Shown piece by piece: positions 3,397 to 19,497 of a stretch of 64,000 nt of DNA. The DNA lies in the NCBI RefSeq assembly GCF_002797675.1, contig NZ_PGEX01000001.1:1798001-1862000 (forward strand). Direction: 5' to 3'. Position 1 is the first letter of the stretch, and each line of letters opens with the position of its first letter. Source of the DNA: Hallerella succinigenes (GTDB lineage: Bacteria; Fibrobacterota; Fibrobacteria; Fibrobacterales; Fibrobacteraceae). The notes below the pieces were generated by a model. It was not told where the DNA came from. It did no database searches and worked only from the letters and a program-made list of their open reading frames with translations. The position numbers were made by a program, and so were the translations under genes.

Positions 3397-3576
3397 CTAT
3401 CTGCCAAACCAGTAGCGGTGCATTTCTGCCACGAAGTCCCTATCCAGCGGGATTCCGGATGCGTCCGGAAGTACGGAATCGATGAAGCAGTCAGAGCAAA
3501 TCTTCGATCTTTTTACAAGATCTTTGTTGTGGGAAGAAGCCTTGTGCGCGTCACGCAGTTTTTGAATATTTCTCAT
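3397..3576 (-). CDS. Small hypothetical protein, 59 residues, last of three tandem small genes
   Basis: Minus-strand ORF from ATG at 3576 to TAG at 3397-3399. The protein begins MRNIQKLRDAHKASSHNKDL and ends EMHRYWFGR, with a CxxC pair (CSDC) in the middle that could bind a metal or form a disulfide. A clear AAAGGA lies 7 bases before the ATG, and a strong terminator follows the stop, so it looks like a real gene. It starts 18 bases after the stop of the 77-residue gene. The family was not recognised. Confidence 0.6.
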   Translation of the reverse strand: MRNIQKLRDAHKASSHNKDLVKRSKICSDCFIDSVLPDASGIPLDRDFVAEMHRYWFGR

Positions 3577-3594
3577 ATTTTTTCCTTTATGTTG

Positions 3595-3828
3595 TTATTG
3601 AATCCATCCTATATGGATGAGATATTTTCGAAGAAAGCGATTGTACTCCTTGCGGAAATTCGCAAATGCGCGAGAATCGCTAGGGGTGCCTGGAATGATG
3701 AAAAATTTTGAGGACGTTAGATGCTGTAAAATAGGGTGCTTAGAATGACGAGAAAGTCTCCAGCAGCCGCTATTGAGCATCGCGTTGCACATTTCATTGA
3801 TGCGTGAATCTTTTGATAAAGTTTGCAT
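3595..3828 (-). CDS. Small HicA-fold-like protein, 77 residues
   Basis: The ATG at 3828 is preceded by AAAAAAGGAGA, a strong ribosome binding site. The protein follows the pattern of short HicA-like dsRNA-binding-fold proteins: a first helix (INEMCNAMLNSG), then W-x-L-x-R-x-x-K-H, a strand (KFFIIPGTPSD) and a final helix with RAFANFRKEYNRFLRK. The TPSDxRAxxNxR segment is often seen in small phage or TA proteins of this kind. The fold assignment is pattern recognition, not a search result. The catalytic His of true HicA toxins is not securely placed. It sits between two other tiny genes and has no HicB-like partner nearby. Confidence 0.6.
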   Translation of the reverse strand: MQTLSKDSRINEMCNAMLNSGCWRLSRHSKHPILQHLTSSKFFIIPGTPSDSRAFANFRKEYNRFLRKYLIHIGWIQ

Positions 3829-3843
3829 GAATTTTCTCCTTTT

Positions 3844-4008
3844 TTAGAAATTTGGATTTGATAAAGTCCTTGAGCCTTTACGGTCCAAGAACTTTTGAGT
3901 TATCCCGTAGAGGGATTCCCGCTGCGGCCACCGCCGGATTTGTTTCCGGTGCTGGAAGGCCATCCGGCCCTGTTCGGTGATGGGTGGTTGTCCGTTGTGC
4001 TTTGACAT
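3844..4008 (-). CDS. Small basic hypothetical protein, 54 residues, first of three tandem small genes
   Basis: I start this gene at the ATG at 4008 because AAAAGGAGGTAATACCC directly precedes it, the best SD in the area. Longer reading frames reaching 4068-4075 lack such a site. The product is rich in Arg, Lys and Gln (MSKHNGQPPITEQGRMAFQH then RKQIRRWPQRE), so nucleic-acid binding is possible. It ends 15 bases before the next small gene. The three genes form a compact unit ending in a terminator. The family was not recognised. Confidence 0.6.
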   Translation of the reverse strand: MSKHNGQPPITEQGRMAFQHRKQIRRWPQRESLYGITQKFLDRKGSRTLSNPNF

Positions 4009-4209
4009 GGGTATTACCTCCTTTTCTTTCTTTGAAGGAAAAGGCTCTGCTCGATTCCGTAATGTCAATCAGCATATCAAGCTTGCAGCTTGATTTGTAT
4101 CGAAGGCTTTCTGTCGTCTTCGTTTGTAGATGAAGAAACCTTAAAAGGGACTAGTTCTCACTTGCTTGCGAGAGCTCCTTGGCAGGGTTTCTCAGGACAC
4201 TGAGATAAG
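4009..4209 (-). other. Leader region of the three small genes, about 200 bases without an ORF of its own
   Basis: Between the sigma-54-like site and the first small gene lies a leader with several inverted repeats: TCTCAG/CTGAGA (4190-4205), AAGCT-TGC-AGCTT near 4080-4095, and a TCTC/GAGA pair near 4160. A TTGACA-like hexamer lies near 4060 but no good -10 was found. The leader could be structured RNA or a small RNA; nothing tRNA-like or riboswitch-like was recognised. Confidence 0.35.
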
Positions 4210-4227
4210 AGCAAAATGCGCGCCAAA
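4210..4227 (-). promoter_or_regulatory. Sigma-54-like -24/-12 element before the small-gene unit
   Basis: On the minus strand the sequence is TTTGGCGCGCATTTTGCT. It has GG (4224-4223) and GC (4212-4211) with exactly 10 bases between, as sigma-54 promoters need. It differs from the TGGCAC-N5-TTGCW consensus only by G for A in the first block. It points at the small genes at 4008. A one-mismatch hit can occur by chance in a window of this size, so this is tentative. Confidence 0.4.
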
Positions 4228-4306
4228 GTTTTGAAATGGCTAAATATGGCGAAAAACTGGCTTTGTGTAAGCGGAACTATATTTAGTAAGAAATATTTTT
4301 CACAAA

Positions 4307-4366
4307 CAAGAAATATTTTTCTTGTTATACTGGGTTTTATGATTTGAAATAGAATGTTATTTCAAA
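4307..4366 (-). terminator. Possible terminator hairpins at the end of the seven-gene operon
   Basis: Two AT-rich perfect inverted repeats follow one another: TTTGAAATA/TATTTCAAA (4343-4351 with 4358-4366), which overlaps the stop codon at 4357, and CAAGAAA/TTTCTTG (4307-4313 with 4318-4324). A direct repeat AAGAAATATTTTTC occurs twice (from about 4289 and 4309). The stems are weak, so efficient termination is uncertain and some read-through into the small genes is possible. Confidence 0.4.
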
Positions 4367-6144
4367 TTACTTTTAAAAGGCTCCCATTTTCCATGAAGTT
4401 TCATATCTTCGTCTTTGAAGAACCATTTTATGGTATTCCCGTTTCTGCTCCAACGACTGTGACAGTTCCGGCACTCGAATAAGAAGTTATTTTCGGTAGA
4501 GCCCTTCGCCCTAGTAGCGTCAGCTTTACAGCAGGGACATTTTTGGATGAGGCTTATTAGGGCGTTCCCGGTCTTGAGAATTTCTATGTCTTCATCGCGG
4601 TTTTTGCGATAGGTACTCAGGTCCCTTTTCTGGATTCTGTCAGTATGCTCTCTTTTATCAACCTGCTTCTTGAATTCATTGTCGTCGTAACAATCGAGCA
4701 GGTATTTACCGTCTAGCATATTGGGGACAAGTTCCTTTATAAATCTATTCTGGGGCACCTTGAACGGATACTGGCACATGAGCATTGCCCAAATCCACTG
4801 GAAAATAATCCTTTGGATTAGGAGTTTTGGGAAGATGGATTGCGGTGCTATGCCCAGTACCATATAGGCTTCGTTGTTTTTGAACATATCATGCAATATG
4901 GTAAAGTTGTCTTCGTCTTCGCTCAGGTAGGGGTTACATTGTGGATATACAAGGACCGATACATCGCCTGTATAGGGGTTAGACTCATTAAGGACGTTGT
5001 CGATATAGCAGCTTGTGGGTTTTGAGGTAACGAAAACAAAGCGCAGCTTTTTGCCGTTTGCTTCTAGTTCAAGGCTGTAGGGTGTTTCTCTATATTCCGG
5101 CTTGATATAGTTCCAGCAATCCCAATCCATGTTTATGGTTCTGAAATCTTCGATGCACCTCTTGACGAATTCTTTTTCGTTGTTCTGCAGCAGGACCTGT
5201 TCTTCTTTTTTTTCTGCTTTAGAAAGGACTTTGATTCGTGCGCGCTTGACCTCTTTCTGTATCTTGGGTAAGTACCGGTAATGTTGGTTGTTCATCAGGA
5301 CGTTTGTCATGATGTCGTGATTGATGTCCACTTCGACGTTGGGAATGATTTTAAGGTTACTGAACAGTAACGTATTCCAAAAGGAGGAGATGACGCGCTG
5401 CAGGTATTTTAAGAAATCAATAGTCCGCTTCAGGAATTCCCTATTCTCCTTGACTTTCTCGATGCTGTATTCCTTGAGTAGGGAACTCAGTTCCGATTCC
5501 ATAGATAAGTAATCTACATAGCTGACTTCTTGGTAATACAATTCTATTTCATAATAGGCGTTGTCGATATTCTTGAGTTTCTGCAATCGCTGGTTTATTA
5601 ACGAAATCAGTATTTTGCAAAGTGTGAACATTAAGCGGTTTTCGTACGTTTCCCATTTGTCGTCCCTGACTAAAGAAAGCAGACGCTGTGGGTGGACTCC
5701 GACAAACGAACGGTTTCTCCAGTCCTCGGAATGCCCTGCCAGATATTCAAGGGCGCGAGATGCGAATTTTTTGACACGGCTAGTTGGCTGCTTTATTTCC
5801 TCTTCCTTCAGGTCAAGAATTGGTCTAGCTACGGCCTCCTTTAGGTGAGTGAGAGGGTCGTTTCGCTTAATTTGTTCAATGTCTTTTTGTAGGAACTTTT
5901 CTAGCTGGTTGCGTTTAAGGTCGTCGGGATTGTTGCACAGCGAAAAGAACGAATCCTTGTCTTCGTCAAGCAGCCGAAATGCGGCAAGGATATCGTTGGT
6001 GATAGGCTCGGATTCCTTGACTTCGATGTCGTCAAAGTGGTAGATGACGTTCCCCTTTTGTGCATCCTCTCTGCTTTGGGCATAGAGGCCTCCGCAATTA
6101 GGGGTGTCAATATTGATATCTTTTTGCAAGAAGATATCGAACAT
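4357..6144 (-). CDS. McrC/DUF2357-like partner protein with C-terminal zinc ribbon
   Basis: The 595-residue product starts at an ATG that overlaps the stop of the McrB-like gene (TAATG), so it is the last gene of the operon and the likely partner of that ATPase. The middle part (FVGVHPQRLLSLVRDDKWE then TYENRLMFTLCKIL) resembles the core of DUF2357/McrC-type proteins, which pair with McrB AAA proteins and often carry a PD-(D/E)XK nuclease. I cannot place the catalytic D-ExK residues securely. The C-terminus has a CPCC (about 535) and CRNC (about 557) zinc ribbon, useful for nucleic-acid binding. The partner role is inferred from position. Confidence 0.6.
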   Translation of the reverse strand: MFDIFLQKDINIDTPNCGGLYAQSREDAQKGNVIYHFDDIEVKESEPITNDILAAFRLLDEDKDSFFSLCNNPDDLKRNQLEKFLQKDIEQIKRNDPLTHLKEAVARPILDLKEEEIKQPTSRVKKFASRALEYLAGHSEDWRNRSFVGVHPQRLLSLVRDDKWETYENRLMFTLCKILISLINQRLQKLKNIDNAYYEIELYYQEVSYVDYLSMESELSSLLKEYSIEKVKENREFLKRTIDFLKYLQRVISSFWNTLLFSNLKIIPNVEVDINHDIMTNVLMNNQHYRYLPKIQKEVKRARIKVLSKAEKKEEQVLLQNNEKEFVKRCIEDFRTINMDWDCWNYIKPEYRETPYSLELEANGKKLRFVFVTSKPTSCYIDNVLNESNPYTGDVSVLVYPQCNPYLSEDEDNFTILHDMFKNNEAYMVLGIAPQSIFPKLLIQRIIFQWIWAMLMCQYPFKVPQNRFIKELVPNMLDGKYLLDCYDDNEFKKQVDKREHTDRIQKRDLSTYRKNRDEDIEILKTGNALISLIQKCPCCKADATRAKGSTENNFLFECRNCHSRWSRNGNTIKWFFKDEDMKLHGKWEPFKSNLK

Positions 6145-8591
6145 TAGGCGACTCGTTCCTTTGCTGCGATGTCCTGGTCAATGAGCCTGATGGTTGCCGA
6201 GTTGTCGTCTAGTTTTATATTTTTTTGAATTTCTTCTTTAAGTTTTACTAGAGAATCATCCTGCACGCCAAATAGACCCGTGATTTTGCCTTTTCGTACA
6301 ATCTTTGTGGCAAGGAGATGGTCTAGAGCGAGTTCTTTGGACCCTCCTGTGGCACAGACCACAGGAACGAAATTCCTGATTTGCCTTTCGAGACGGTTTC
6401 CGAAAGATACATCAAATTCCGACTTTAGTACATCCTTGAGGGAATGCATTTTTTCAGTGACCCAGGCAGCTTGCTGTTCTCCTTCATCTGATTCCTGTGC
6501 TTCGACAAATGCGTTTCTCAAATCCTCGGCGGACCAGTGGGCCGCACCTTGTCTTACCTTTTGGTAGGACGGTTTTTGAGTATTGCGCTCCATCACCATG
6601 ACGTGGGCGCGGTCGTACGTCTTGTCGGCGAATTCCATGGTGGTTTCGTCATGGTTTGCGGTGCCGATAAACCACACGTTGGGAGGAACAATGATTTTTT
6701 CATTTTGGAGGTATTTGGGCCAACGGTCTGATTCCATAGTTTCTTTGGGCATTCCCGAAAGCAGCTCAACTGTTAGGGGATCAAATATGGAGCTATTTGC
6801 TTGCTCCATTGCTGAAATGAAGTCTGCAAAATATTGTTCGGGATGTGACAAGTTCATTTCGTCGAGAATTAGGAAAAATAGGCGGTTTTTGAACTGAGGC
6901 GTAGATGCGGTATAGAGCCCCTTGGAGAAGGTTTTTTCGTAGAACTTCTTTTCGAAGGCATTGTAGTAACCCAGCAAATCCTGGTTGTCGCGCCATCCGG
7001 CCTGAACAGGGATTATGCAGCTACAGGAACCGTTATCCTTCTCTGACTTGCTACCATCGGAATTATCTCCAACGATAGAAGCGAACGCTTGTGCTAATTT
7101 GGTCTTGCCTGTTCCGCTAATACCCTGTAGTAAAATGAGGCGGCTCATGGCTAGGCCACCAACAAACAGTTGCAGAGTTTCGGGTGTATAGAAAAGGTGG
7201 GGCTGATATTGCGTCAACTGGTAGCCGACTGCATTCACGAATTCTTTAAGGTCACCGGAATTTTGGGTGAAACTGATGTATTCGCGGTTGCATCTGCTAT
7301 CGATGTTCTTGAATTCAGCAAAAATGTCCTTATTCTGGTCTTTTGCGGTAAGCTCATCGAGCTCTTTACGCAACTGGTTTTGCGCTTCTTTGAGAGCCGC
7401 GTTGTGCGTTTCCAAAGTTTTATTTAAAGCAATTAAACCTTCTGTGTCTACAATTTTTCTTCGATAATCCATTACCTGTTTAGAGAGCGCATTCTTTTCG
7501 GCGATGGCTGATTCGCATTGGTCTTTGAAACTCTGCAAAGCATCTTCCATCTCCTGCTGGTGTTCCGGGCTCCAGGCAGAATTAAGTTCCAACTTGAGAG
7601 TTGCATTTTTATTGCGAAGATTGTTTATCAACTCCTTGGCCTCTTCGGCACTCATCCCATCGAGCTGTGACTTGATATCCTTGTAGCTCTTTAATTGCTT
7701 TTGCAGGTTCTTATTTTCTTCATTTAAGTCTTTAATTTGATTTTCAAAGGCTTCTTTCTTTTGTGTAAGTCTATTTTCATAATCACGCTGAATATCTTCC
7801 CTGATTTCATCAAATGCCTTTTTCCTGTTTTCATATTCCGTTTTCTCAAGAATGCATTTTTCTTGCTCTTTGCTTAAAGAGGCGAGTTTGTTTTTGTAAT
7901 CTTCAGATTGCTTTTGCAGCGAGTTTCTTGTTGATTCCAGATCTTTATTGAGTTTTTCGGTAATCTCATTTTTCCATTTGGTCTCGTTTGCGATAAAGCC
8001 TGCATCGGCTTCGGCTTCTCTTTGCTTAATCTGAGCTTTAAGCCCTTCTAGGCGTTCGTCTTCTTTTTTGTTTGCGTCTTCTTTTATCTGAGCCTTGCCT
8101 TCTCTGTCAGCGATTTCATTTTCGTTTTCTTTTGCTTTGCGTTCTCTTTCGGTAACTTCGTCTTCACGTTCTTTGACTTTATCTTCTCTACCCTTTAATT
8201 CGCCGTCTTTGGCTTCTTGCTCGTTAGCTGTTTTCCCTAATTCTGCAATTTTAGAGTCATAATCAGTCTTGGCGTTGTCACAATCTTTCTTGGCTATCTT
8301 GTACAAGTCAATTAAATTGTTGAGCTCTGTTTGCAAAGCATTAAGAGTTTCTTTTTCTTCATCGGACAGTTTGTTCTCTAAAGGGATTATTTTTTTGATT
8401 TTATCCAGTATAGAATCCTTGGACACTTTGATTTCCGGCGAAGTGCCATCGGGACTAGAAACGACAGGCGCACTTTCGACGGTGGTCTTTACCGGGGAAA
8501 AAATACTTTTCACATCGGCCGCGCTTATGGGTTCACGACGCTGCGGAGTAGAGGGCTGGTACTTGTTCTTATTTTTGTTTTTCTTGCTCAT
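6144..8591 (-). CDS. McrB-like AAA+ protein with long N-terminal coiled coil
   Basis: The 815-residue protein has a charged N-terminal half, residues about 70-450, with Lys/Glu-rich heptads (KEREDEVTERERKAKENEN) that indicate a long coiled coil. The AAA+ motor follows: Walker A GISGTGKT (about 490), the McrB-type GWRDNQDLLGYYN loop, Walker B LILDEMNLSHPEQYF (about 575) and the sensor FIGTANHDET. In McrBC this motor drives translocation on DNA with its nuclease partner; here it would drive the 595-residue neighbour. The fused coiled coil is unusual for McrB and may scaffold a larger assembly. The start ATGA overlaps the preceding gene's stop. Confidence 0.88.
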   Translation of the reverse strand: MSKKNKNKNKYQPSTPQRREPISAADVKSIFSPVKTTVESAPVVSSPDGTSPEIKVSKDSILDKIKKIIPLENKLSDEEKETLNALQTELNNLIDLYKIAKKDCDNAKTDYDSKIAELGKTANEQEAKDGELKGREDKVKEREDEVTERERKAKENENEIADREGKAQIKEDANKKEDERLEGLKAQIKQREAEADAGFIANETKWKNEITEKLNKDLESTRNSLQKQSEDYKNKLASLSKEQEKCILEKTEYENRKKAFDEIREDIQRDYENRLTQKKEAFENQIKDLNEENKNLQKQLKSYKDIKSQLDGMSAEEAKELINNLRNKNATLKLELNSAWSPEHQQEMEDALQSFKDQCESAIAEKNALSKQVMDYRRKIVDTEGLIALNKTLETHNAALKEAQNQLRKELDELTAKDQNKDIFAEFKNIDSRCNREYISFTQNSGDLKEFVNAVGYQLTQYQPHLFYTPETLQLFVGGLAMSRLILLQGISGTGKTKLAQAFASIVGDNSDGSKSEKDNGSCSCIIPVQAGWRDNQDLLGYYNAFEKKFYEKTFSKGLYTASTPQFKNRLFFLILDEMNLSHPEQYFADFISAMEQANSSIFDPLTVELLSGMPKETMESDRWPKYLQNEKIIVPPNVWFIGTANHDETTMEFADKTYDRAHVMVMERNTQKPSYQKVRQGAAHWSAEDLRNAFVEAQESDEGEQQAAWVTEKMHSLKDVLKSEFDVSFGNRLERQIRNFVPVVCATGGSKELALDHLLATKIVRKGKITGLFGVQDDSLVKLKEEIQKNIKLDDNSATIRLIDQDIAAKERVA

Positions 8592-10036
8592 TTGTAGGCC
8601 TCGTGTAAAATATTCAACTGTTTTTCAATTCTGTTGTAAATGTCATTGTAGGGATACGGAATGGTTTTTCTGTTCGCGTTAAAATGGTCGTAGATGTTGC
8701 GCGTGTCTACCAGTTCAAGAATGAATTTAAGGTCATCGCTCAATGATTTATTTTTTACCAGTCTTGCCGTAAACCAAGCTAGTGAGTTTTGGGGATGATA
8801 AAGGTAAAAGATAAGATGCCTAATGAGTAGCGATTTTAGTGAGGGTTTCAATCGAGTCATGTTCCCCCATACATCATCATTTGTTAATTTTTTCTTAATG
8901 TTTTCATCCAGCTTTAGATTGCGTATCTTTAGGCCGCCTTCCAAATAGTAATGACGGTCTTGATCTTTTTTGAATGCAACCTTTTTGAGTTCGTCATTAA
9001 AGGGCGTATTCCTTGTCCTAAGGATGCTTTCGTACATATTTTGCATTCTAGTAAGGAATGCGTCGCCTAGATCAAACGAGTTGTCTGTATCGTCGGCAAG
9101 AATGTCTTTTAAAACAAAGAATCTGCAAATTTCAATAATAATGTCTTCCTCAAAATGTGGATATCTGCCTTGAATACGGTCTTGAAGCGTAATGGGAATC
9201 TCTATTGATTTAATTCCTAAAAAAGCTCCCATTTTTTCATTCTGTTCTAGGGCTGTATCTAGTTCGTTTTTGAGGAACTCCATTGGAATTTTGGATTGTT
9301 CTTCTAGCATGTCGATGCATTGAAAGTCTTCGCCTTCAGAAATCTTTTTGACCTGGACAAGCAGAAAATTGCATATATCAGGTTCTTGGTTCCGCTTCTC
9401 AATAGAAATTATTTTATCGGGTTGTTCAATGTAGCTTGACTTTATGTCATTGTAGTCGGACAAGGCAATATCGCAGTCAATTTGCTGGTATTCCTTCCAC
9501 ATATTGTAAATGTCTTCTTCCGAAATGTCTGTTGAGTTTTCTCTAATTTTGTTGGTGCGTGGGTACACAACAAACGGCTTGATGTTGCAGGGCATGCCCT
9601 TGGACCCGCCGGCAATTGTGATTCCTTTTTCGTTTTGTTGGTAATCAATGGACGTGAGTTCCCCATTCATTAAGGGGTGAGGAATTAATTGTCCCGTCAA
9701 CATAGATTGTAGCACTACGATTCGCTTCTTCTTGATTTTGGTCTCTGTACTGGAGACGACTTCTGGTATGTGCCACTTGTCAATCCCTTTTGTGACGTTC
9801 TGCTTGAGGTCGTGTTCAAGAATGTAACGAATTAGGGCTTCATCCAGGTTGGTCAATTCGTGGAGTTCTTGAACAGTCTTGTCTCCGGTCAGGAGAAAGT
9901 TTATGATCAGATCCGAAAAAAAGTTTTCGGGGATATTTGCTTCTGCTACCAGAATATCCCATACAACGACAGGCAAGGTGAAATAATCTCCCTTGGAGAG
10001 TTCACTTGAATTGCAAAATAAATTAGCAATTTCCAT
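8588..10036 (-). CDS. Operon protein with N-terminal winged helix and C-terminal HEPN-like motif
   Basis: I start it at the ATG at 10036, one base after the helicase stop and behind GAGGAAAAATAAT, giving 482 residues; an upstream in-frame start overlaps the helicase gene. Residues about 30-90 look like a winged helix (INFLLTGDKTVQELHELTNL). The C-terminal 100 residues are helical, and RNIYDH near residue 447 fits the RNxxxH active-site motif of HEPN RNases, followed by a typical amphipathic last helix. No family name was recognised for the whole protein. RNase activity is inference. The 3' end overlaps the McrB-like gene by ATGA. Confidence 0.6.
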   Translation of the reverse strand: MEIANLFCNSSELSKGDYFTLPVVVWDILVAEANIPENFFSDLIINFLLTGDKTVQELHELTNLDEALIRYILEHDLKQNVTKGIDKWHIPEVVSSTETKIKKKRIVVLQSMLTGQLIPHPLMNGELTSIDYQQNEKGITIAGGSKGMPCNIKPFVVYPRTNKIRENSTDISEEDIYNMWKEYQQIDCDIALSDYNDIKSSYIEQPDKIISIEKRNQEPDICNFLLVQVKKISEGEDFQCIDMLEEQSKIPMEFLKNELDTALEQNEKMGAFLGIKSIEIPITLQDRIQGRYPHFEEDIIIEICRFFVLKDILADDTDNSFDLGDAFLTRMQNMYESILRTRNTPFNDELKKVAFKKDQDRHYYLEGGLKIRNLKLDENIKKKLTNDDVWGNMTRLKPSLKSLLIRHLIFYLYHPQNSLAWFTARLVKNKSLSDDLKFILELVDTRNIYDHFNANRKTIPYPYNDIYNRIEKQLNILHEAYK

Positions 10037-10037
10037 A

Positions 10038-13000
10038 TTATTTTTCCTCGTCTGCAAGTTTAATAAATTCTTTTAATGCGGGAACTTCCTCTTGTGCTTT
10101 TTCTGTTTCATACATTTTTCTATTTCCTACAACCACGAGAAGTTTCTTTTGACGCGAAAATGCGACGTTCAGGCGGTTTTCCGATTTTAGGAACCCGAAG
10201 ATGTTTCTGTCGTTGCTACGAACGACGGAGAAGAACACGATATCGAATTGTCGACCTTGGAAGGCGTCGATAGATCCGATTTCTAGTTGTTTGCTGTCAA
10301 TTTTTTTCTTGAGTTCTGCGTCTGACTTAGCAATTTTATCAATGAGTCGTGTTTGTGCACTGTATGAGGCAATAACACCAATAGTTTCGTCAGTTTCCTT
10401 GATAATTTCCTTTATGCGCTTAATAATTAGCTCAGCTTCAGCCTCGTTCGTTTTGCTTATTTTTCCAGATTCCTTGCTATCGACATTTTCCCAAACCGCA
10501 CACTTGCAATCTCCATTTTTCTTAGTGTATCTTGAAACATGATGAATGCAGTCATTGGGATTTTTGCCGGTTTGAATATGTGTCTCGTCTCCGTAAAAAT
10601 TTCGACTTACAAAGTCGCTTAGTTTTTGCGGCATACGATATTGAGTGTCGAGAGTTACCGTGCGTACAATGCCATCATTTCGTTCTGTTTTTAAATAATC
10701 CCATAAAGATTCGAATAGAGACTTTTCCATAAAGCCCTTCAATTCTTCGAACCGTTCCCTAGAATCATTGCTGGATTCCATTTGCTCTAGAATATCTTGA
10801 TTAACAAGTTGGGGGAGCTGCTTGTGGTCGCCTACTAGTATAACTTTTTTTCGGGCTAAGGTGATGGGTATGAATAGATCAAGAGGATTTGCTCGAGCGG
10901 CTTCATCGATGATGACGTAATCAAACTCAAAGTTTTTCTTACCAAGAAGCCTTACAAAAGATTCACTTTTTGATTGCTGTACTGTTGCCGCATAGGTCAT
11001 GGCGTAACGGAGCATCGCGTTTCTGATGGATTTGAATTTGACATTCTCCTTATAGCCGTTTAAAACAATCAGTTTTTGTAGGTCGGTTTGCCTGATGCGT
11101 TCTTTGATGTTGGGCTCGATGGTCGTGTCAATATAATTCTTTAGACTTGTGAACAGATGATTGTCAAAGGAATCCGTTGGATTGGGTACCATTTGCTCAA
11201 TGCACTTGTTTCTGAGTTCTTCAATCCAGTCAAGGTCATTTTGGCTAGGATTGGAGTTCGCTAGTTTCTTTAGCTGATCATACCCTTTTTCCAGGGCGTA
11301 ACAATTCAAGGAATTCTTGCGTAAATCGTAGTATTCCAACACTCGCTCGATCATTCTCTTGCCGTCGTCATTGTATCCCGTGTTGGTTGTTCTTAATCCC
11401 ATTAGGCATTGGTAGAATTTATTGTTTATTTGCTTGACTTGGAATTTCTTTTTGAGTTCCTTAAGAGTATCCACTTCTGACGGAGAAAGGATGCTGTTTG
11501 TGACGGCAAGATTGATGATTTCTTGTAGTAGGTTTCGTATTTCGTAAGAAGAGCTTGCAGCGCTTAGTGCATTAAGGCTTATTTGCAATTTTTCGTATTC
11601 GATGTACTGCGAGTCGGACTGTAACTTATTTATCTGTTCGTCAATTTTTTTTGCGGTATCTTCTTGCCATTTCTGGAGTCCTCTGAAGATTTGTTCCTTG
11701 TCCTTTTGTTCACCATAAAAGCGAAATACGGGAAGTCCCCAAATTGAGCTTCCGTCAGCCACATTATCAACAGCTACATGTTGGAAACCTGTCAGCAATA
11801 TGCTAGGCATTTTTTCGGGATGCTTTGGGTCTATCGATTGTAGATATTTTTGTAATGCGTTGATAACGCTGGTCTTTCCTGTTCCGGGAGGTCCTTGGAT
11901 AAGGGCTATGTCAGGTGTGCTCAGACAAACCTTTAGTGCTCTTTTTTGTGCTTCATAGGGTTTTCTGTTACCGAATGCCGCTTCAATTTTTAGGTCATTC
12001 AGCCTTTTGGGAATGGCTGCGGAACCGAAGGCGGGAAGCGTCGTTTTATTTAAAATGTCTGTAATAGATGCAATGGGAATGTTGCGTGTTCGGATATTTT
12101 CTAGTGCTGCTGTTCTGCGGTTGGATGCTATAGACCATGGTTTAAAATCTATGGCGAATCCCTCAAGTTCTAGCTTTTCGCTATTGTCATATTTAGGTTT
12201 TCTTTCGCCCCATTTCCAGGAAACTGTTCTTGTTTTCTCGTCAATCCGTTCGTCGCAAATATTGTAACTCTTACGTTTCGAGAAAACGTAGATGGAATAA
12301 GAATTCTTTTGATTGGCGTTCAGCTGATCGTATATGTTCTTGAAATTTTCTATTTCTTCGGATTTGTTTTGAAGTGTTGCGCTACAGTTTTCTCCTTTGG
12401 CTGTTATCTTTTCGATGCGAAGGATGCCAGACTGGATTTTATAATCTTCCAGCATCTTTGCGTCAACCTGATTATACTTTTCCCAAAGGTTTATGATGGA
12501 GTTTGGGTCTGCTGCTTGCTTAGCTAACTGTGCATTCAAAATGGGATCGCTTACGATGACTTCTTGTTCTGATACGAATCGAATGTGTGCAATCCCTTTT
12601 TGTACATTCAATTTTTTTTGAGGAGACTTTTTTAGATTGCTGACAAAGAGATACTCCTTGCCATCTACCTTCTTACTTTCGATATTTGCAACATAATTGC
12701 ATCCGAGCCATCCTCCTTCCAAATTTGACGTATTGCTCAGAATTCTAAAAAATAAGTACGAATTTTCAGTGGTTTGGAAAAGAAACTCTTTTTTGAACCA
12801 TTCAAGTGCCTGTTCTGTTTCTTTAAAACCATGTTTCTTAGTGACTTCTATGAGCCTGTAGGTTGGAATGACGATGCAGCATGTCTGTTCGGTGTTTCCT
12901 ATAATGGTCGGTCCGCCAAAATCCCACTTGTTTAGGGTCACCTCGTATTTTTTTTCTGCTTGTTTTACGGAATCTACAATGTAGAGTGACTCCTGATTGT

Positions 13001-13184
13001 ATGGATGTGAATTTTGTGGCCAGAATATCCTTTCTGGATGATTGTAGTTTTTGAAATATCCGCTTGGGGTGAATTCCAAAACATCGTGTTTGGCGATTTC
13101 GAATTTTCCGTCATTGTCAAATATGGCGTCTATGACTTGTGCCGAAGAATTGCATGCAATGATATTCAGTTGCTCGTTATTCAT
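10038..13184 (-). CDS. UPF1/DNA2-like superfamily 1 helicase
   Basis: The 1048-residue protein carries all main SF1 motifs: Walker A ALIQGPPGTGKTSVI (about 431), DEAA box FDYVIIDEAARANPLDLF (about 760), VGDHKQLPQL (motif III), LDTQYRMP (motif IV), SIDAFQGRQFDIVFFS (motif V) and RLNVAFSRQKK (motif VI). The first 400 residues form a separate domain not recognised. By family it would unwind or remodel DNA, RNA or RNA-DNA hybrids with ATP. It starts at an ATG overlapping the kinase stop (ATGA). SF1 helicases have been noted next to TerY-P kinase/phosphatase triads, consistent with a nucleic-acid-processing role. Confidence 0.9.
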   Translation of the reverse strand: MNNEQLNIIACNSSAQVIDAIFDNDGKFEIAKHDVLEFTPSGYFKNYNHPERIFWPQNSHPYNQESLYIVDSVKQAEKKYEVTLNKWDFGGPTIIGNTEQTCCIVIPTYRLIEVTKKHGFKETEQALEWFKKEFLFQTTENSYLFFRILSNTSNLEGGWLGCNYVANIESKKVDGKEYLFVSNLKKSPQKKLNVQKGIAHIRFVSEQEVIVSDPILNAQLAKQAADPNSIINLWEKYNQVDAKMLEDYKIQSGILRIEKITAKGENCSATLQNKSEEIENFKNIYDQLNANQKNSYSIYVFSKRKSYNICDERIDEKTRTVSWKWGERKPKYDNSEKLELEGFAIDFKPWSIASNRRTAALENIRTRNIPIASITDILNKTTLPAFGSAAIPKRLNDLKIEAAFGNRKPYEAQKRALKVCLSTPDIALIQGPPGTGKTSVINALQKYLQSIDPKHPEKMPSILLTGFQHVAVDNVADGSSIWGLPVFRFYGEQKDKEQIFRGLQKWQEDTAKKIDEQINKLQSDSQYIEYEKLQISLNALSAASSSYEIRNLLQEIINLAVTNSILSPSEVDTLKELKKKFQVKQINNKFYQCLMGLRTTNTGYNDDGKRMIERVLEYYDLRKNSLNCYALEKGYDQLKKLANSNPSQNDLDWIEELRNKCIEQMVPNPTDSFDNHLFTSLKNYIDTTIEPNIKERIRQTDLQKLIVLNGYKENVKFKSIRNAMLRYAMTYAATVQQSKSESFVRLLGKKNFEFDYVIIDEAARANPLDLFIPITLARKKVILVGDHKQLPQLVNQDILEQMESSNDSRERFEELKGFMEKSLFESLWDYLKTERNDGIVRTVTLDTQYRMPQKLSDFVSRNFYGDETHIQTGKNPNDCIHHVSRYTKKNGDCKCAVWENVDSKESGKISKTNEAEAELIIKRIKEIIKETDETIGVIASYSAQTRLIDKIAKSDAELKKKIDSKQLEIGSIDAFQGRQFDIVFFSVVRSNDRNIFGFLKSENRLNVAFSRQKKLLVVVGNRKMYETEKAQEEVPALKEFIKLADEEK

Positions 13185-14626
13185 TCTTCACCCCAGTATT
13201 TGAATAGGATGACGCTCCTGAATTTCAAGGGATCGTTTTCTTTGGAATCATCATGTATAATGTTTGTTCGTGTGTATTCGGGGAAAAGAATTTGGTACTG
13301 TTTGCCTTCCTTGACGTCGATAAGGAGGGATATCCCCTTTTTTAGGGTGCAGCTTTTCGTGGTTTTTTCTTTGGGGATGTTTAATGTAACCTTCAGCTCC
13401 TTCTGATCGGTCAGTAGTATGCTCAGTTGCTGCTTGGATACGTTGAATGATGCTTCGATGTTGGCCGATTTGGTTTCTGCTATGGGAATGTTCATTAGGG
13501 TGGATGTATCCTCTAGCAGATACGCGGGATGGCTGAAACCTGTGTCTTGAATTTTGTTCCCTGCAAGAATGGTATTGAGTATAAGAATATATGGAGTATG
13601 TGATTCTTTGTCGCAAAACGGACATTCATGCTTCTTGCTGACTTTGATATAATGCTTTCCGCAATTCTTGCATTTCATAAAAGATGTTTCGCCTATTCGA
13701 AGCGTCTCAATCCATTCAAATAGGGCGGGCCTTGTCAAAAAACTTTTTTCACCGGAAAAAGTCCTTTTGAAAAGACTCTGTAGCATTTCTGTTTCCAAAA
13801 GATTGCGGAGAGCCGATGATTTGCCTGTGTTGTCTTTGTCCATGTCGTCAATAAAGGGAAGATCCGATTCCTCCTCTTTTTTTCCCATGGTGGATATTTC
13901 CATGGTTGCAGCATCGGTTACGAGTTTGCCGTGGAACGGCAACTCTTGTCGTAGAGTAAAGAATGCTATGACTGCAAAACTCCATGTGTCGCTCAAGGGC
14001 GTGTTGAACTTATGTTCTCTTACAACTTCAGGAGCGGAGAATCCTTTGAATGCAATAGAATCGTTGAAGTCGGCGGCAATGACCATGTTGTCACAGTCAA
14101 TTAATTGAACTTCATTATATTCTGTATTGCTTGAAATAAAAACATTATTAGGATTTAAGTCTCCGTAACAGTATCCTACGGAATGAATTTGTTCAAGAAT
14201 TTCAGCAAGCTTCCGCAAAAGTGTGTAGATGCGGCGGATGCCACCTAGTCGATCAAGATATAAAGCAAATGATTCGTTTTTTTTGCATTGAAGACTGCTT
14301 AACGAAACCATGTCTTCCATTAGTTCCATGACGTAACCATAGAAGATTTTGCCTCCTTTTTCTATAGGCTTGATTTCGTTTAGAGGCTTTGCGATATAGT
14401 CGGGCAAATCGATTCTAGAACGAAGATTCCTGTAGCGTCTATAGACTGTTTCCTGATTGAAGCCTTTTGAAGTGTAGCTCAGTTTGACGAGTAAGTTAGT
14501 CCGCTGGGTCTTATATACGGCTCCTTGGCCACCTTCACCGATGCATTCTTTTAGTTCGAAAATGCCTGCACTTTCGGTTTCAACATTAGTGATTTTATTT
14601 TGCTTTACAATTTCGTCTGTAAACAT
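13181..14626 (-). CDS. Ser/Thr protein kinase with C-terminal zinc ribbon (TerY-P kinase)
   Basis: The 481-residue protein has a kinase domain in its first 290 residues: glycine loop GEGGQGAVYKT, ATP-anchoring lysine in LLVKLSY, catalytic loop YCYGDLNPNNVFIS (HRD replaced by YGD, with the Asp and Asn kept), metal-binding Asp in LIDCDN (DFG changed to DCD), and SAPEVV. A zinc ribbon CKNCGKHY/CPFCDK follows at about 320-340, then a beta-rich tail. This layout is that of the kinase in TerY-P triads, where it is opposed by the PP2C phosphatase encoded just upstream. The gap to that gene is 6 bases and GAAGGTGA serves as SD. Confidence 0.9.
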   Translation of the reverse strand: MFTDEIVKQNKITNVETESAGIFELKECIGEGGQGAVYKTQRTNLLVKLSYTSKGFNQETVYRRYRNLRSRIDLPDYIAKPLNEIKPIEKGGKIFYGYVMELMEDMVSLSSLQCKKNESFALYLDRLGGIRRIYTLLRKLAEILEQIHSVGYCYGDLNPNNVFISSNTEYNEVQLIDCDNMVIAADFNDSIAFKGFSAPEVVREHKFNTPLSDTWSFAVIAFFTLRQELPFHGKLVTDAATMEISTMGKKEEESDLPFIDDMDKDNTGKSSALRNLLETEMLQSLFKRTFSGEKSFLTRPALFEWIETLRIGETSFMKCKNCGKHYIKVSKKHECPFCDKESHTPYILILNTILAGNKIQDTGFSHPAYLLEDTSTLMNIPIAETKSANIEASFNVSKQQLSILLTDQKELKVTLNIPKEKTTKSCTLKKGISLLIDVKEGKQYQILFPEYTRTNIIHDDSKENDPLKFRSVILFKYWGEE

Positions 14627-14632
14627 AATTAG

Positions 14633-15358
14633 TCACCTTCGTTCAATGACGACGATTGTCTTATCGTCTATGTGGTGTTGGGTTGGCCAATGAATCAATT
14701 CGTTTGTAAGTTCTTTTTGCGCTTGTTTTTTTGAACTTTTGAGAAAAATATCAAATGTGGAAACAAAATTTTCGATTGCCTCTGGTAAAATATCTTCGCT
14801 AATGCCGTCGGTCATCATGAGTAGTCGATCTTTTGATGAGGATAGGTCAATTTTGTTCATTCGCCAAAGGGGAGAAATGTCATAGTTTCCCATAGCGGAT
14901 GTTTCATTGCCGAAACCATTTTTATTATCTGCGAATACGTTGATTTTTTCATTGTGTTTTACAAGAGTCATTCCGTCGCCCAATTGGGCCAACCATCCCT
15001 TACCTTTGCTATTTATGATAGCTAGTTGGCAAGTGCTGCCGCACTTGTCTGCTCCATACTTGCGCGAATACATCAACCAATGACAATGCAGTAATCTTAG
15101 AAAATCTGTAAGATCGTGTGGCTTGATTTGATTCCATTCTTTAAAGCATGGAGTGAATAGCTTGCATAAAGTTTTTGCCCCGTAATCGCTGTGGGCGTGG
15201 GAGCCTAAACCGTCACAGACCATCACTAAAAGAAATTTACCAACAAAGCCGATGAACGTACTGTCTTGGTTTGGAATGTTCTCTCTGATGTGTCCGGGAC
15301 CACGTGCTGAGGCTTGGATATATTTCCATTTGCAACGAGTGAAAAATTCTGTAAGCAA
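14633..15358 (-). CDS. PP2C-family protein phosphatase (TerY-P phosphatase)
   Basis: The 241-residue protein shows the PP2C metal and catalytic motifs in order: VMVCDGLGSH (metal-binding DG), AQLGDGMTLV, LLMMTDGISE and, near the end, IDDKT. The start is most likely the TTG at 15358, behind GAGGAC and 2 bases after the vWA gene stop; no better ATG exists before the conserved N-terminal WKYIQASARGPGH block. It would remove phosphates placed by the kinase encoded next, with the vWA protein as the third member of the triad. It is cytoplasmic, with no signal or membrane segment. Confidence 0.9.
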   Translation of the reverse strand: MLTEFFTRCKWKYIQASARGPGHIRENIPNQDSTFIGFVGKFLLVMVCDGLGSHAHSDYGAKTLCKLFTPCFKEWNQIKPHDLTDFLRLLHCHWLMYSRKYGADKCGSTCQLAIINSKGKGWLAQLGDGMTLVKHNEKINVFADNKNGFGNETSAMGNYDISPLWRMNKIDLSSSKDRLLMMTDGISEDILPEAIENFVSTFDIFLKSSKKQAQKELTNELIHWPTQHHIDDKTIVVIERR

Positions 15359-15360
15359 AT

Positions 15361-16071
15361 TTAGTCCTCGTCAAATAGCTCTTTAACGTTTTCAGAAAGG
15401 CTGATGATATCGTTTGGGGCTATTTCGCCTGGCTTGGCGGATTGGGAACTTTTGATTGCGGACATGGTAACGCATTTGAAAAATTTTTGTATTTCAATGG
15501 CGTTGTTCGCCTTAAAAATGGGCATTTCTTCGTTGTTTACGAACTTTTTCAGCATGCTTTCGTCTGCGTCCGCGCCAATGGCGAGGGCGAGTCGATTTGC
15601 TTTTTTACTTCTTTCGTTATTAAGAAGCCTATCTAATGGTTGTTGCCAAAGGTCGTTAGGCATTCCGTCGGATGCTAAAACGATGAAAGGACGATATGCG
15701 CGGGAAGGGTAGATTTCTCTATTTTCTAGCAAATCAACAAGGCTAGTCAAAGCTTTGCCGAGAGGTGTGTCGCCTATAGCTTGCATTTTGTTAATGACGT
15801 TCATTTTAGAAGGATCATTGGCTATTTCACTAGCTGATTGTGGTTCCAAAATGATGTTTGCGGCTTGGTTGCCGAACGTTATGATTGAAACGTATATTTC
15901 AGCTTCTAGAGCTGACGATGAAGCGTCTTTGAATGAACTGATCATGTTATTCAAAGCGTGCTTTAACGAATCTAATTTTCCGATTTCATTCATACTGCCA
16001 CTTACGTCCGCAAGAATGATTACGGGAAGTGGACGAGATTGGATGCTTACGACGGTATCGAATACACTCAT
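15361..16071 (-). CDS. TerY-like von Willebrand A domain protein
   Basis: The 236-residue protein is almost entirely one vWA domain with a full metal-ion-dependent adhesion site: DVSGS (about residue 20), the Thr of GDTPLGKAL, and ASDGMPND. This matches TerY-type cytoplasmic vWA proteins. It is the first gene of the operon and has a strong SD (AAGGAG) 8 bases before the ATG. Its 5' end lies about 65 bases downstream of the start site expected from the sigma-54 promoter. In TerY-P systems vWA, PP2C and kinase act as a phosphorylation switch; that function is inference from the family. Confidence 0.9.
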   Translation of the reverse strand: MSVFDTVVSIQSRPLPVIILADVSGSMNEIGKLDSLKHALNNMISSFKDASSSALEAEIYVSIITFGNQAANIILEPQSASEIANDPSKMNVINKMQAIGDTPLGKALTSLVDLLENREIYPSRAYRPFIVLASDGMPNDLWQQPLDRLLNNERSKKANRLALAIGADADESMLKKFVNNEEMPIFKANNAIEIQKFFKCVTMSAIKSSQSAKPGEIAPNDIISLSENVKELFDED

Positions 16072-16148
16072 GATATACTCCTTTGTGTGACTATATACAT
16101 TTTTTACAAACGATGTATGCGGTTAAATGTGTTTTCTTTGGAAGTCTG

Positions 16149-16165
16149 TGCAAAAATTGTGCCAA
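16149..16165 (-). promoter_or_regulatory. Sigma-54 promoter of the seven-gene operon
   Basis: The minus strand reads TTGGCACAATTTTTGCA, a perfect TGGCAC-N5-TTGCA element: GG at 16163-16162 and GC at 16151-16150 with 10 bases between. Transcription should start near 16138 and run into the vWA gene at 16071. The divergent gene encodes a sigma-54 activator, so promoter and activator fit one another. Confidence 0.85.
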
Positions 16166-16190
16166 GTTTATGAATGTGGTTTTTGTAGCG

Positions 16191-16254
16191 TTTTTCGTGT
16201 TTTAAATATCAAGAATGCGAAAAGTTTTTCTTATTTATATAAAAATTTTTCGTA
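16191..16254. promoter_or_regulatory. Candidate activator-binding repeats upstream of the sigma-54 promoter
   Basis: TTTTTCG occurs at 16191-16197 and 16246-16252 and its complement CGAAAA at 16218-16223. A small palindrome GAAAA-GT-TTTTC spans 16219-16230. These lie 25-90 bases upstream of the -24 element, where enhancer sites of sigma-54 activators usually sit. The region is AT-rich, so the repeats may be incidental. Confidence 0.3.
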
Positions 16255-16267
16255 TATTCCAATTGAT

Positions 16268-17686
16268 ATGAAAACGAAAATCACATTGCTTACTTGGATG
16301 GCCGTCAATAATGATCCTAGTGCTTTAGAGTCTTTATTGAAAAAGTTGGGTCAGAAATATGACGTTGAAAAGGTTATATACCTTTATCAAAAAGAATATG
16401 TGGAAAAGTTGAAAGAAGTACAACCGCTTAGTTCAGCTATAAATCCGGTAGAGGTGAATGTCAAGAATCCGACTGCACATAAAGAGATTTATGAGATTAT
16501 AAAGCGAGAAATTCTCCCGATGGTGAATGATGAACCAAATTTGTTCATCAATGTCTCTTCGGGTACGCCGGCGATGCATGCTGTTTGGATTATTTTATAT
16601 GCTGGAGGCGTTTTCCCTGAAGGAACACAATTACTGTCCTCACAAATAAATCGAAAGACGGGAGCAACGACTTGTGACAAGGTTGATTTCCCGATTGATA
16701 CGTATTTAAGTGAACTCCGTCGATATGAAAGGGAAAACCCGAAAGAGGCTATTTATAAACCTGAGTCTGTAAAATCAGAAGCTCGTAAAAAGGCTTTAGA
16801 GCAAATTCGTGTTTTCGCGAGCGTTCAAGGCGTGCCGATGCTTTTGCTGGGAGAACGCGGCATTGGCAAAAGCCGTTTGGTTGAATCTGTTGTTTCTAAG
16901 ATTAAGAAAAAAGAAGTGGTTTCGGTAGCCTGTGGAACGTTGGATTCTAATTTGGCTGAATCTGCGATGTTTGGTCATAAAAAAGGTTCTTTTACTGGTG
17001 CTACGGCTGACAAAAAGGGCTATTTTGGAGAGGCTGACGGTAAAATTCTTTTTCTGGATGAAATTCAGGATTTGCCGAAAGGTGTACAACGCAAGTTGCT
17101 TCGAACATTGCAAGACAAAAAACATCGCTATCGCATTTTGGGCGATGACAAGGAATCTACGGCGGATGTGGAACTTGTCTGTGCATCAAATTTGACAGAA
17201 AAGGAACTTCGTCAAAAACTGGATCCTGATTTTTATGATCGAATTAGCTTCTATACCGTGAATATACCGCCTTTGCGGGAATGTCGTGAAGATATTGTGG
17301 GGGACTGGAATGAAGTGTGGAAGACAGTCCGGTTGGATAGCTCTCCTAAGGACGCTCCCATGGATAAGTATCTTGAAAAATATTTTAGGACTTCCAGGTT
17401 GTCTGGAAATTTCCGAACATTGCAGTCGGTTGCTTACCAGTTTATAGCATGGAATGGCAAAAAGACGATTGCGGAAATCCTGAAAGATCTTCCTGCGGAT
17501 GACTCTTCGAATGGAACTTTTGATATTGGGGAATTTTCAGAATTCCAAAACTTGACTTGGAAAGAGGCTACCAAGCTTTTCCAGCAAAAACTTGCTGAGT
17601 ATTCGTGCGAAAAATATGGAACTCAAGAAGCTGCGGCTCAAAAGCTTGATTGTACCTCAAAGACTTTGCAAAATGCGATGAAGTGA
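16268..17686 (+). CDS. CARF-domain sigma-54-dependent activator (RtcR-like)
   Basis: I use the ATG at 16268 (472 residues); an earlier in-frame ATG at 16127 would add 47 residues of low-complexity sequence across the promoter. Residues 1-150 form a CARF-like Rossmann domain with the hallmark NVSSGTPAMHAVW (about 94-106), the ligand loop seen in Csm6/Csx1 and RtcR. The AAA+ domain follows: Walker A GERGIGKS (about 195), the sigma-54-contacting loop GSFTGAT (about 240) and Walker B ILFLDEIQD. The end is a HTH (TQEAAAQKLDCTSKTLQNAM). It should activate the divergent operon when its CARF domain binds a cyclic oligonucleotide or 2',3'-cyclic-phosphate RNA; the ligand is unknown. Confidence 0.88.
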   Translation: MKTKITLLTWMAVNNDPSALESLLKKLGQKYDVEKVIYLYQKEYVEKLKEVQPLSSAINPVEVNVKNPTAHKEIYEIIKREILPMVNDEPNLFINVSSGTPAMHAVWIILYAGGVFPEGTQLLSSQINRKTGATTCDKVDFPIDTYLSELRRYERENPKEAIYKPESVKSEARKKALEQIRVFASVQGVPMLLLGERGIGKSRLVESVVSKIKKKEVVSVACGTLDSNLAESAMFGHKKGSFTGATADKKGYFGEADGKILFLDEIQDLPKGVQRKLLRTLQDKKHRYRILGDDKESTADVELVCASNLTEKELRQKLDPDFYDRISFYTVNIPPLRECREDIVGDWNEVWKTVRLDSSPKDAPMDKYLEKYFRTSRLSGNFRTLQSVAYQFIAWNGKKTIAEILKDLPADDSSNGTFDIGEFSEFQNLTWKEATKLFQQKLAEYSCEKYGTQEAAAQKLDCTSKTLQNAMK

Positions 17687-17701
17687 AGTTAATGCGCTAC
17701 G

Positions 17702-18997
17702 TCACCTGATCATAAACACAGCATAAAGTGGGACAGACTTGATTCCGTTTTCAATGCCGAAATTCTTTGCGGATATCCGGATGCTGTAGGGCGATTTGTG
17801 TTTTGAAACAAAGCTTTTGAGACTTTGTGATTTGTTGTGAGTTGACGACTTGACTTCAATGGGAATGATTTTGTTTTTTAGCCGAACGATGAAATCAATT
17901 TCGTTTTGATTGTTCTCGTTCCAGTAATACGTTTCTAGATGGTTGGCTTTTAATTGCGTATAAACGTAATTTTCAACAAGACCGCCTTTGAAGTCGTTGA
18001 ATAACGGATTCTCGTAGACGACGTCATCGTACGTGGCGTTTTGCGATGCACAACACAGGCCAACGTCGCTCATGTACAGCTTAAAATCAGAGTCGGATGC
18101 GTTTGCCTTGAACGGTAATGCCATATGCTCGAGGCGGGCAACTTTAGATGCGATTCCGGCAAGGGTAATCCATTCGAGTGCGTTTTCAAATTCGCTAGCT
18201 CGTGCGCCGGGCTTTAATCCTCTGTATTGGAATTTCTTGTTTTCCTTAGCGAGTTGTTTTCCTATGCTTGCGTAGACGAGTCGGGTCTTGGCAATTTCGC
18301 TTTGCTTGTTGTATTTGCTCATGTCATTTTGATAAGCCGCGAGAATGTCGTTCTTGATGATGTCCGTTTGGAGAGGATTATGATTTTGAACAAAGTTGCT
18401 GACTGCGGCGGGCATGCCTCCGACAAAAAGATATTCCCTATAGGCTTCTAAAGCCTTTTTGTGCAAAGCTTCTTCGAGCGGCTTGTTTTTTGCATAGCAT
18501 TCCTTGATTTGCTCAAGGAGAAAATTTTCTTCGCGTGCGGTTAAAAATTCTTCGAAATCCAGCGGGTGCATATCTATGATTTCAACCTTGCCGACAGGGA
18601 AGGAATACTGGTTTCGATTGACGGCAACTCCGAGGAGCGACCCCAATGCAATGATGTGGATGTCCGGAGCTTCTTCGCAAAAATATTTGAGCGATGTGAG
18701 CGCTTCGGGGCAGGCCTGCACTTCGTCGAAAATGACGAGAGTTTCGCGAGGAATCACTTTTTTTTGCTTGATGGCGGACAGTCTAGGCAAAATGTGGCTT
18801 GGTGCCAAGTTTGAAAAAATGGAGGAAAGGTCGGGGTCTCGTTCGAAGTTGCAGTAAATCACGTCGGAGTAATATTTTGCCCCGAATTCGGTGACGGAGT
18901 ATGTTTTCCCGGTCTGGCGTGCCCCTTGGAGAATCAGTGGCTTGCGTGACGGAGAATTCTTCCATTCAATCAATTTTTCGATGATTTTGCGTTCCAT
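17702..18997 (-). CDS. AAA_14/DUF4143 ATPase
   Basis: The product (432 residues from the ATG at 18997; an ATG at 19012 is also possible) has the AAA_14 motor at its N-terminus, PLILQGARQTGKTYSV (Walker A, about 20-35) and LVIFDEVQACPEALTSLKYF (Walker B), and a C-terminal DUF4143 domain with the restriction-like stretch NEIDFIVRLKNKIIPIEVKS. That D-(x)-ExK pattern suggests a nuclease-fold domain. Such ATPases are very common accessory genes in gut anaerobes and their function is not established. It is convergent with the CARF regulator (15-base gap) and is probably unrelated to it. Confidence 0.88.
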   Translation of the reverse strand: MERKIIEKLIEWKNSPSRKPLILQGARQTGKTYSVTEFGAKYYSDVIYCNFERDPDLSSIFSNLAPSHILPRLSAIKQKKVIPRETLVIFDEVQACPEALTSLKYFCEEAPDIHIIALGSLLGVAVNRNQYSFPVGKVEIIDMHPLDFEEFLTAREENFLLEQIKECYAKNKPLEEALHKKALEAYREYLFVGGMPAAVSNFVQNHNPLQTDIIKNDILAAYQNDMSKYNKQSEIAKTRLVYASIGKQLAKENKKFQYRGLKPGARASEFENALEWITLAGIASKVARLEHMALPFKANASDSDFKLYMSDVGLCCASQNATYDDVVYENPLFNDFKGGLVENYVYTQLKANHLETYYWNENNQNEIDFIVRLKNKIIPIEVKSSTHNKSQSLKSFVSKHKSPYSIRISAKNFGIENGIKSVPLYAVFMIR

Positions 18998-19012
18998 ATT
19001 AAAAATATACAT

Positions 19013-19497
19013 TAAAAAGTGTTAATTTTATGTGTGAATTTACATTTTTTAGTGCTTTGGGTTCGTTCTTAGCAGATTTGCGGAATGTTTTAAGCAACAC
19101 AAGAATTCTAAGGGTTGAATGGTTTTCCACATCAATAAAAGTTTGTTTTCTATATTCTTTCACGCTGATAATTAATCCTGCTGACAGCGTATTCGATTCG
19201 GGCAGGAAGTTTCACTATCTGCTTGAGGTCGTCTCCCTTTGCGAAATTGACGCTTTGCAAATCGAGACAGTTGCCCTGTGGGGAACCGGCCCCGTGGCTA
19301 TCAACGTAGAGCACCGTCTGCAAACGCGGACGTAAAAACCATGTCGTAAACTGGTTTGCAAACGATTGCCGATAATAATCGGCAGCGTTAGAAGTGCTCT
19401 AAGATTGTCCGGTAATTGTTTGTGAACTGCAATTTAAAATAAGGTGATAGAGAATTCTCGGTCGCCTATTCGCCGCTTGTCGGCAAAAGGATATTTA
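19013..19497. other. Intergenic region with a possible gene remnant
   Basis: About 480 bases between two divergently placed genes. A plus-strand frame ending at 19335 gives a stretch with protein-like composition (FHYLLEVVSLCEIDALQIET then VALWGTGPVAINVE), but its upstream part is not gene-like and no SD was seen, so it may be the 3' stub of a lost gene. An inverted repeat GCCGAT-AATA-ATCGGC lies near 19368-19383 without a T run. Nothing else was recognised. Confidence 0.3.

Follow-up and report, generated by a model that had tools for sequence, protein, structure and literature searches.

A predicted CARF/sigma-54 switch at a Type II CoCoNuT operon of Hallerella succinigenes and at other defense operons of Fibrobacteraceae

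Introduction

The close packing of genes for a TerY-P triad, a helicase and McrBC-like proteins beside a CARF-containing activator in Hallerella succinigenes raises the question of how such an operon is switched. We analyzed a 64,000-nucleotide stretch, hereafter the window (bases 1798001-1862000 of the single-contig, 3.13-Mb genome, G000), in which seven minus-strand open reading frames run from 16071 down to 4357 and a CARF-AAA+-HTH sigma-54 activator is encoded divergently. Judged by their sequences, the seven genes make up a Type II CoCoNuT (CnuH-CnuE-CnuB-CnuC plus TerY-P) in the sense of Bell et al. 2024 (PMC11090510), a predicted anti-phage, RNA-targeting Type IV restriction system. The cited sections of that paper describe this gene set as often associated with RtcR-like CARF sigma-54 activators and propose that these proteins switch CoCoNuTs on; neither a promoter nor an enhancer is named there. 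Sigma-54 control of defense genes by RtcR-like CARF proteins had already been predicted in the part of Makarova et al. 2014 (PMC4012209) cited here. Both the operon and its regulator are therefore of known types, and the statement of a first-pass annotation of this DNA that no described system joins a CARF sigma-54 activator to a TerY-P/McrB/helicase operon does not hold, since Bell et al. describe one in the sections cited and these eight genes are also found together on a Rhodoferax plasmid. Here, we address by computation the gene content, the promoter, the enhancer, the specificity of the enhancer for activator loci and the swapping of modules among operons.

Results

The operon is tightly spaced, with gaps of 2 and 6 bases and overlaps of 1-20 bases at the remaining junctions; the open reading frame coordinates thus bear out the packing first described (gaps of at most 6 bases, or overlaps). 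The perfect sigma-54 promoter said to face the operon was likewise recovered, at 16149-16164 on the minus strand (TGGCACAATTTTTGCA), with a perfect -24/-12 consensus. Perfect sites number 17 in the whole genome versus 4 for the reversed pattern; another in the window, at 61736-61751, lies in coding DNA without an enhancer and was rejected as a chance match. The first-pass annotation was right about the divergent gene being a CARF-AAA+-HTH activator with a GSFTGA (GAFTGA-type) loop, which matches the PADLOC model RtcR_PspF1 CARF_AAA_HTH (PDLC01994) over its full length at E = 4e-172, but its start is most likely at 16268 (gene 16268-17686, plus strand) and not at 16127, as close homologs begin MKxKxTLLTWM. 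The start at 16127 is further disfavored because the promoter would then fall inside the activator gene. With the start at 16268, promoter and enhancer therefore occupy a 197-bp intergenic region.

The enhancer in this region (16214-16257) is a pair of palindromes that follow the pattern TAMGAAAAATTTTTCKTA, with a spacing of 20-21 bp (22 bp at the weak G118 site); such pairs lie upstream of sigma-54 sites, 50-82 bp from the promoter. Because the consensus was first noticed in these same loci, it was tested on a genome left out of training, using a sequence-only model built from seven sites in other genomes and their reverse complements, with G000 excluded. The top match of this model in G000 is the site in question (1814214-1814257, E = 2.2e-4). 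The top three also include 2690859-2690903, beside a second RtcR-like gene, and, in third place, 1802287-1802327 (window 4287-4327, E = 0.0024), and the next different place scores 0.09, versus 2e-4 to 2e-3 for these three; calibration of the E-values is rough, and the ranking is independent of it. The model also recovers the untrained main promoter of G103, and across 168 Fibrobacterota genomes every match at E<1e-3 falls at an RtcR-like activator locus, the two borderline matches (~0.003) corresponding to chance expectation. Sigma-54 sites with at least 9/11 matches are present at all 11 activator loci. The palindromes are very AT-rich, and this, together with the origin of the consensus, would fit AT-rich noise or sites for another factor. 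We consider that very unlikely, as none of 200 shuffles reaches the score of the 16214-16257 enhancer, no dinucleotide shuffle does so at 9 of 13 sites, and the model trained without G000 still ranks its sites first and is specific across the 168 genomes. A candidate at G000:C1:1415133, near another sigma-54 site, has a single weak palindrome with no tandem and was dismissed as not significant. That the CARF activator controls the operon, as the first-pass annotation proposed, thus has good support from cis-elements with predictive power in other genomes. About ten bases separate the end of the enhancer from the activator start codon, a closeness that suggests autoregulation.

The arrangement resembles the RtcR-rtcBA RNA repair locus of E. 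coli and Salmonella in its divergent CARF-AAA+-HTH activator, sigma-54 promoter and upstream activating sequence. An ordinary RNA-repair regulator, a true RtcR lying beside the operon by chance and acting on rtcBA, would account for the match of the activator to the NCBIfam RtcR model (E = 2.3e-55), but is highly improbable. The match reaches 188 bits, far below the equivalog cut-off of 650; the targets here are defense genes; and the enhancer and promoter lie beside the operon and elsewhere only at two related promoters. Moreover, RtcB was not found in the G000 genome, which largely refutes a true RtcR; with rpoN present there and RtcB absent, the circuit is therefore not one of RNA repair. 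The activator also resembles the RtcR-like CARF activators linked to restriction-modification, which are predicted sigma-54 activators of defense genes; no promoter or enhancer is named in the cited part of that work (PMC4012209).

What the switch would release is indicated by the operon itself, all on the minus strand. The TerY-P triad is complete, with a TerY-like von Willebrand A (VWA) protein encoded first (15361-16071; Pfam VWA 8.4e-12, N-terminal DxSGS), a PP2C phosphatase (14633-15358; Pfam PP2C_2 2.8e-32) and a Ser/Thr kinase with a C-terminal zinc ribbon (13181-14626; Pfam Pkinase 5e-14, CxxC...CPFC C-terminal to the kinase). CnuH (10038-13184) is the UPF1-like superfamily 1 helicase that characterizes Type II CoCoNuTs (Pfam AAA_12 2e-42, AAA_11 5.7e-30; PADLOC MkoA helicase 1.6e-84); the type definition also assigns SmpB-like and RNase-toxin-like domains to the CnuH N-terminus. 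CnuE (8588-10057) combines a winged helix-turn-helix (wHTH) with a helical C-terminus bearing a HEPN-type R-x4-H (RNIYDH), as judged from alignment and a structure model that is of low confidence overall and confidently helical at the C-terminus; R453 and H458 are invariant in six homologs at 17-75% identity, with five residues between them in the Rhodoferax homolog. CnuB (6144-8591; P0002) has a long, charged coiled-coil stretch and a McrB-like GTPase in which NHDE represents a shortened NxD in place of NxxD, and its homologs in three Fibrobacterota genomes are 54-75% identical. CnuC (4357-6144) is McrC/DUF2357-like, with two CxxC pairs forming a zinc ribbon (CPCC...CxxC) in an alignment of five homologs that contains no conserved PD-(D/E)xK motif; the protein has no Pfam match.

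The likeness to the Type II CoCoNuTs with an RtcR homolog in the cited sections of PMC11090510 thus extends from gene content, TerY-P triad, NxD McrB and UPF1-like helicase to a predicted wHTH-HEPN effector, a putative zinc-ribbon CnuC without an evident nuclease motif and the CARF sigma-54 activator. The Rhodoferax plasmid is colinear (RtcR-VWA-PP2C-kinase-CnuH-CnuE-CnuB-CnuC). In contrast to the cited descriptions, in which the activator mostly runs in the same direction as the operon, here it is divergent; the host belongs to the Fibrobacterota, the promoter and enhancer are located, and a second sigma-54 promoter precedes small HicA-like genes. Assignment to Type III-A was rejected, since the 595-residue CnuC lacks an Hsp70 match and the 489-residue CnuE has one conserved RxxxxH and not two HEPN domains. 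The first TerY-P triads to be described accompanied tellurite-resistance genes (as cited in PMC11090510, in the sections used here), and the operon might on that account serve mainly against metal or tellurite stress and play no part in phage defense. This is improbable, given that we found no ter genes in the operon beyond the triad, that its helicase, HEPN-type and NxD McrB parts fit a CoCoNuT, and that the same switch is found at Mokosh-like and Type III-A-like CoCoNuT operons. The helicase of Mokosh is kin to CnuH, and other loci with the same switch carry a helicase and a PLD nuclease; the window operon differs in that it lacks a PLD nuclease and includes McrBC and TerY-P components.

How widely the switch travels was addressed through its distribution. 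Of 151 genomes searched, 10 encode a member of the activator family, and 4 of 168 Fibrobacterota genomes contain the Type II operon. The co-occurrence that the first-pass annotation had put forward as its check holds for half of these operons: G000 and G103 have a divergent activator and a sigma-54 site, whereas G016 and G071 have all seven genes and neither element. The activator is also the last gene in two Type III-A-like CoCoNuTs and in two Mokosh-like helicase-wHTH-PLD sets, a position from which it would reinforce its own synthesis, and it adjoins one helicase gene, one kinase/VWA/PP2C set and small genes elsewhere. The window activator is 93% identical to that of a Type III-A-like locus in G049 and only 63% identical to that of the G103 Type II locus, the operon proteins of which are 67-81% identical to those in the window. 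Because activator and operon identities disagree in this way, activators appear to have been exchanged between operons, with activators 93% identical found at different operon types. One kind of enhancer-promoter-activator set serves Type II CoCoNuT, Type III-A-like CoCoNuT and Mokosh-like helicase/nuclease operons. The activator tree, in which most deep branches lack support, allows just one conclusion, namely that the activators of neither CoCoNuT group cluster together.

G000 has another RtcR_PspF1 gene (G000:C1:2689434-2690825; L010:9434-10825), which diverges from two small genes of the sC and sD families and is accompanied by a sigma-54 site and an enhancer; no large defense operon adjoins it. 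Mokosh-like loci with a UPF1-like helicase, a wHTH-like protein, a PLD nuclease and the activator last were observed at L009:4758-11413, L023, L030 and L031, and the four-gene set also occurs on Vibrio, Klebsiella (partly) and Pontibrevibacter plasmids. A search of genome contigs with the activator returned one locus only, in a Fibrobacter succinogenes metagenome-assembled genome, apparently the same contig as one of the Mokosh-like sets. Among plasmid loci outside Fibrobacter, one plausible sigma-54 site was found in Rhodoferax (10/11), and no clear one at the Vibrio or Pontibrevibacter loci.

A second sigma-54 promoter, which has an enhancer and small genes of its own, escaped the first-pass annotation. 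The third-ranked enhancer match (4287-4327) lies downstream of the operon, and the promoter it accompanies (TGGCGCGCATTTTGCT; 4210-4225, minus strand, 10/11 positions) precedes a small block in the order sB, sA, sC (3397-4008, minus strand). sB (3900-4008) encodes a small Gly-rich protein (MSKHNGQPPI...) that is frameshifted here and intact elsewhere; sA (3595-3828), a 77-residue HicA-like protein; and sC (3397-3576), a 59-residue protein with an internal deletion, related to a small CxxC protein whose full-length version occurs in G003, a genome of the same genus. With two of its three genes looking damaged, the block may be decaying in G000. Intact relatives of the block occur in many Fibrobacteraceae. 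In G103 this position, 122 bp past CnuC, is likewise occupied by a sigma-54 site, and undamaged sA and sB genes come after it. An upstream sigma-54 promoter accompanies 6 of 6 activator-linked copies of sA versus 0 of 29 others (Fisher p = 6e-7, not a strict probability, as the copies are related). The kinship of sA to HicA is suggestive only: its model (helix-three strands-helix, pLDDT 88) agrees with HicA in fold order and in an invariant RHxKH, and the family matches are sub-threshold, with a relative matching Pfam HicA at 0.0024, below the cut-off, and HicA ranking first, without significance, in Foldseek. In G003 the small block is ~97% identical but has different DNA next to it, and homology with the window ends at 4151. 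Because it stops there, the second promoter, on the island side of the junction, and its enhancer belong to an incoming island that captured a resident block.

The variable island spans ~4152 to 19.1 kb (4152-19145), and G003 matches the window again from 19146. Between the same flanks G003 holds another 6-kb cassette (an HTH-PIN-ankyrin protein, an AAA-HAD protein and others), and cassette types of G003 adjoin the activator in G049 (L020). Elsewhere in the window, 25650-27023 and 27138-28511 are tandem, duplication-like open reading frames of equal length (457 residues), and at 40851-47866 a 1159-residue protein with UvrD/GajB-like helicase matches adjoins a 1178-residue protein, possibly another defense pair.

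Discussion

Our analysis leads us to consider it probable that this is a Type II CoCoNuT locus, encoding a Type IV restriction system predicted to target RNA, and that sigma-54 control keeps it silent until a ligand triggers the activator. In RtcR, the CARF domain represses until its signal arrives, and the protein binds tRNA fragments with cyclic phosphate ends; by analogy, the activator should hold the operon off as RtcR does. DNA binding by the activator, its ligand, RNA cleavage and an anti-phage effect are predicted steps of the following scheme. The RtcR-like activator would bind the two adjacent palindromes and, while its CARF domain is empty, would not activate. Infection would produce a ligand, most likely RNA fragments with 2′,3′-cyclic phosphate ends and less likely cyclic oligoadenylate, upon which the AAA+ ring would assemble, open the sigma-54 promoter and allow the seven-gene operon to be made. 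The TerY-P kinase/phosphatase/VWA triad may then gate the system, and RNA would be cleaved by the helicase, the NxD McrB motor and the HEPN RNase, which would bring phage or cell to a halt. The activator would also fire the second promoter, before the small HicA-like block.

The same circuit could answer instead to cyclic oligoadenylate made by a Cas10-like enzyme, a possibility to which we give less weight. The genome does encode a Cas10-like protein of 516 residues with GGDD beside two RAMP-like genes in a compact type III-like locus (G000:C1:17750-22570; L121), but the RtcR family mostly lacks the usual charge of the ligand pocket (Makarova et al. 2014, PMC4012209, in the part cited). No SMODS nucleotidyltransferase match was found in the G000 genome. 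Several observations weigh against a ligand-triggered, RNA-targeting CoCoNuT dependent on this switch. The Type II core does not need it, as two of the four Fibrobacterota operons have neither activator nor sigma-54 site; the two most divergent activators (G115, G118) are without a clear tandem enhancer; and a structure search with the low-confidence CnuE model did not recover the HEPN fold and gave weak wHTH-like matches.

The recurrence of the switch leads us to favor, with some reserve, a portable CARF/sigma-54 module (activator, tandem-palindrome enhancer and -24/-12 promoter) that moves between unrelated Fibrobacteraceae defense operons and also switches on the small HicA-like block, so that a single signal of the RNA-damage type would set off several otherwise silent systems. 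Judging from the papers we found, the enhancer common to these loci, its specificity across the phylum, the module swapping and the captured HicA-like block appear undescribed. Regardless of the signal, the named promoter and enhancer sites make the proposal of Bell et al. directly testable with a reporter, and the enhancer provides a motif for finding further inducible defense operons.
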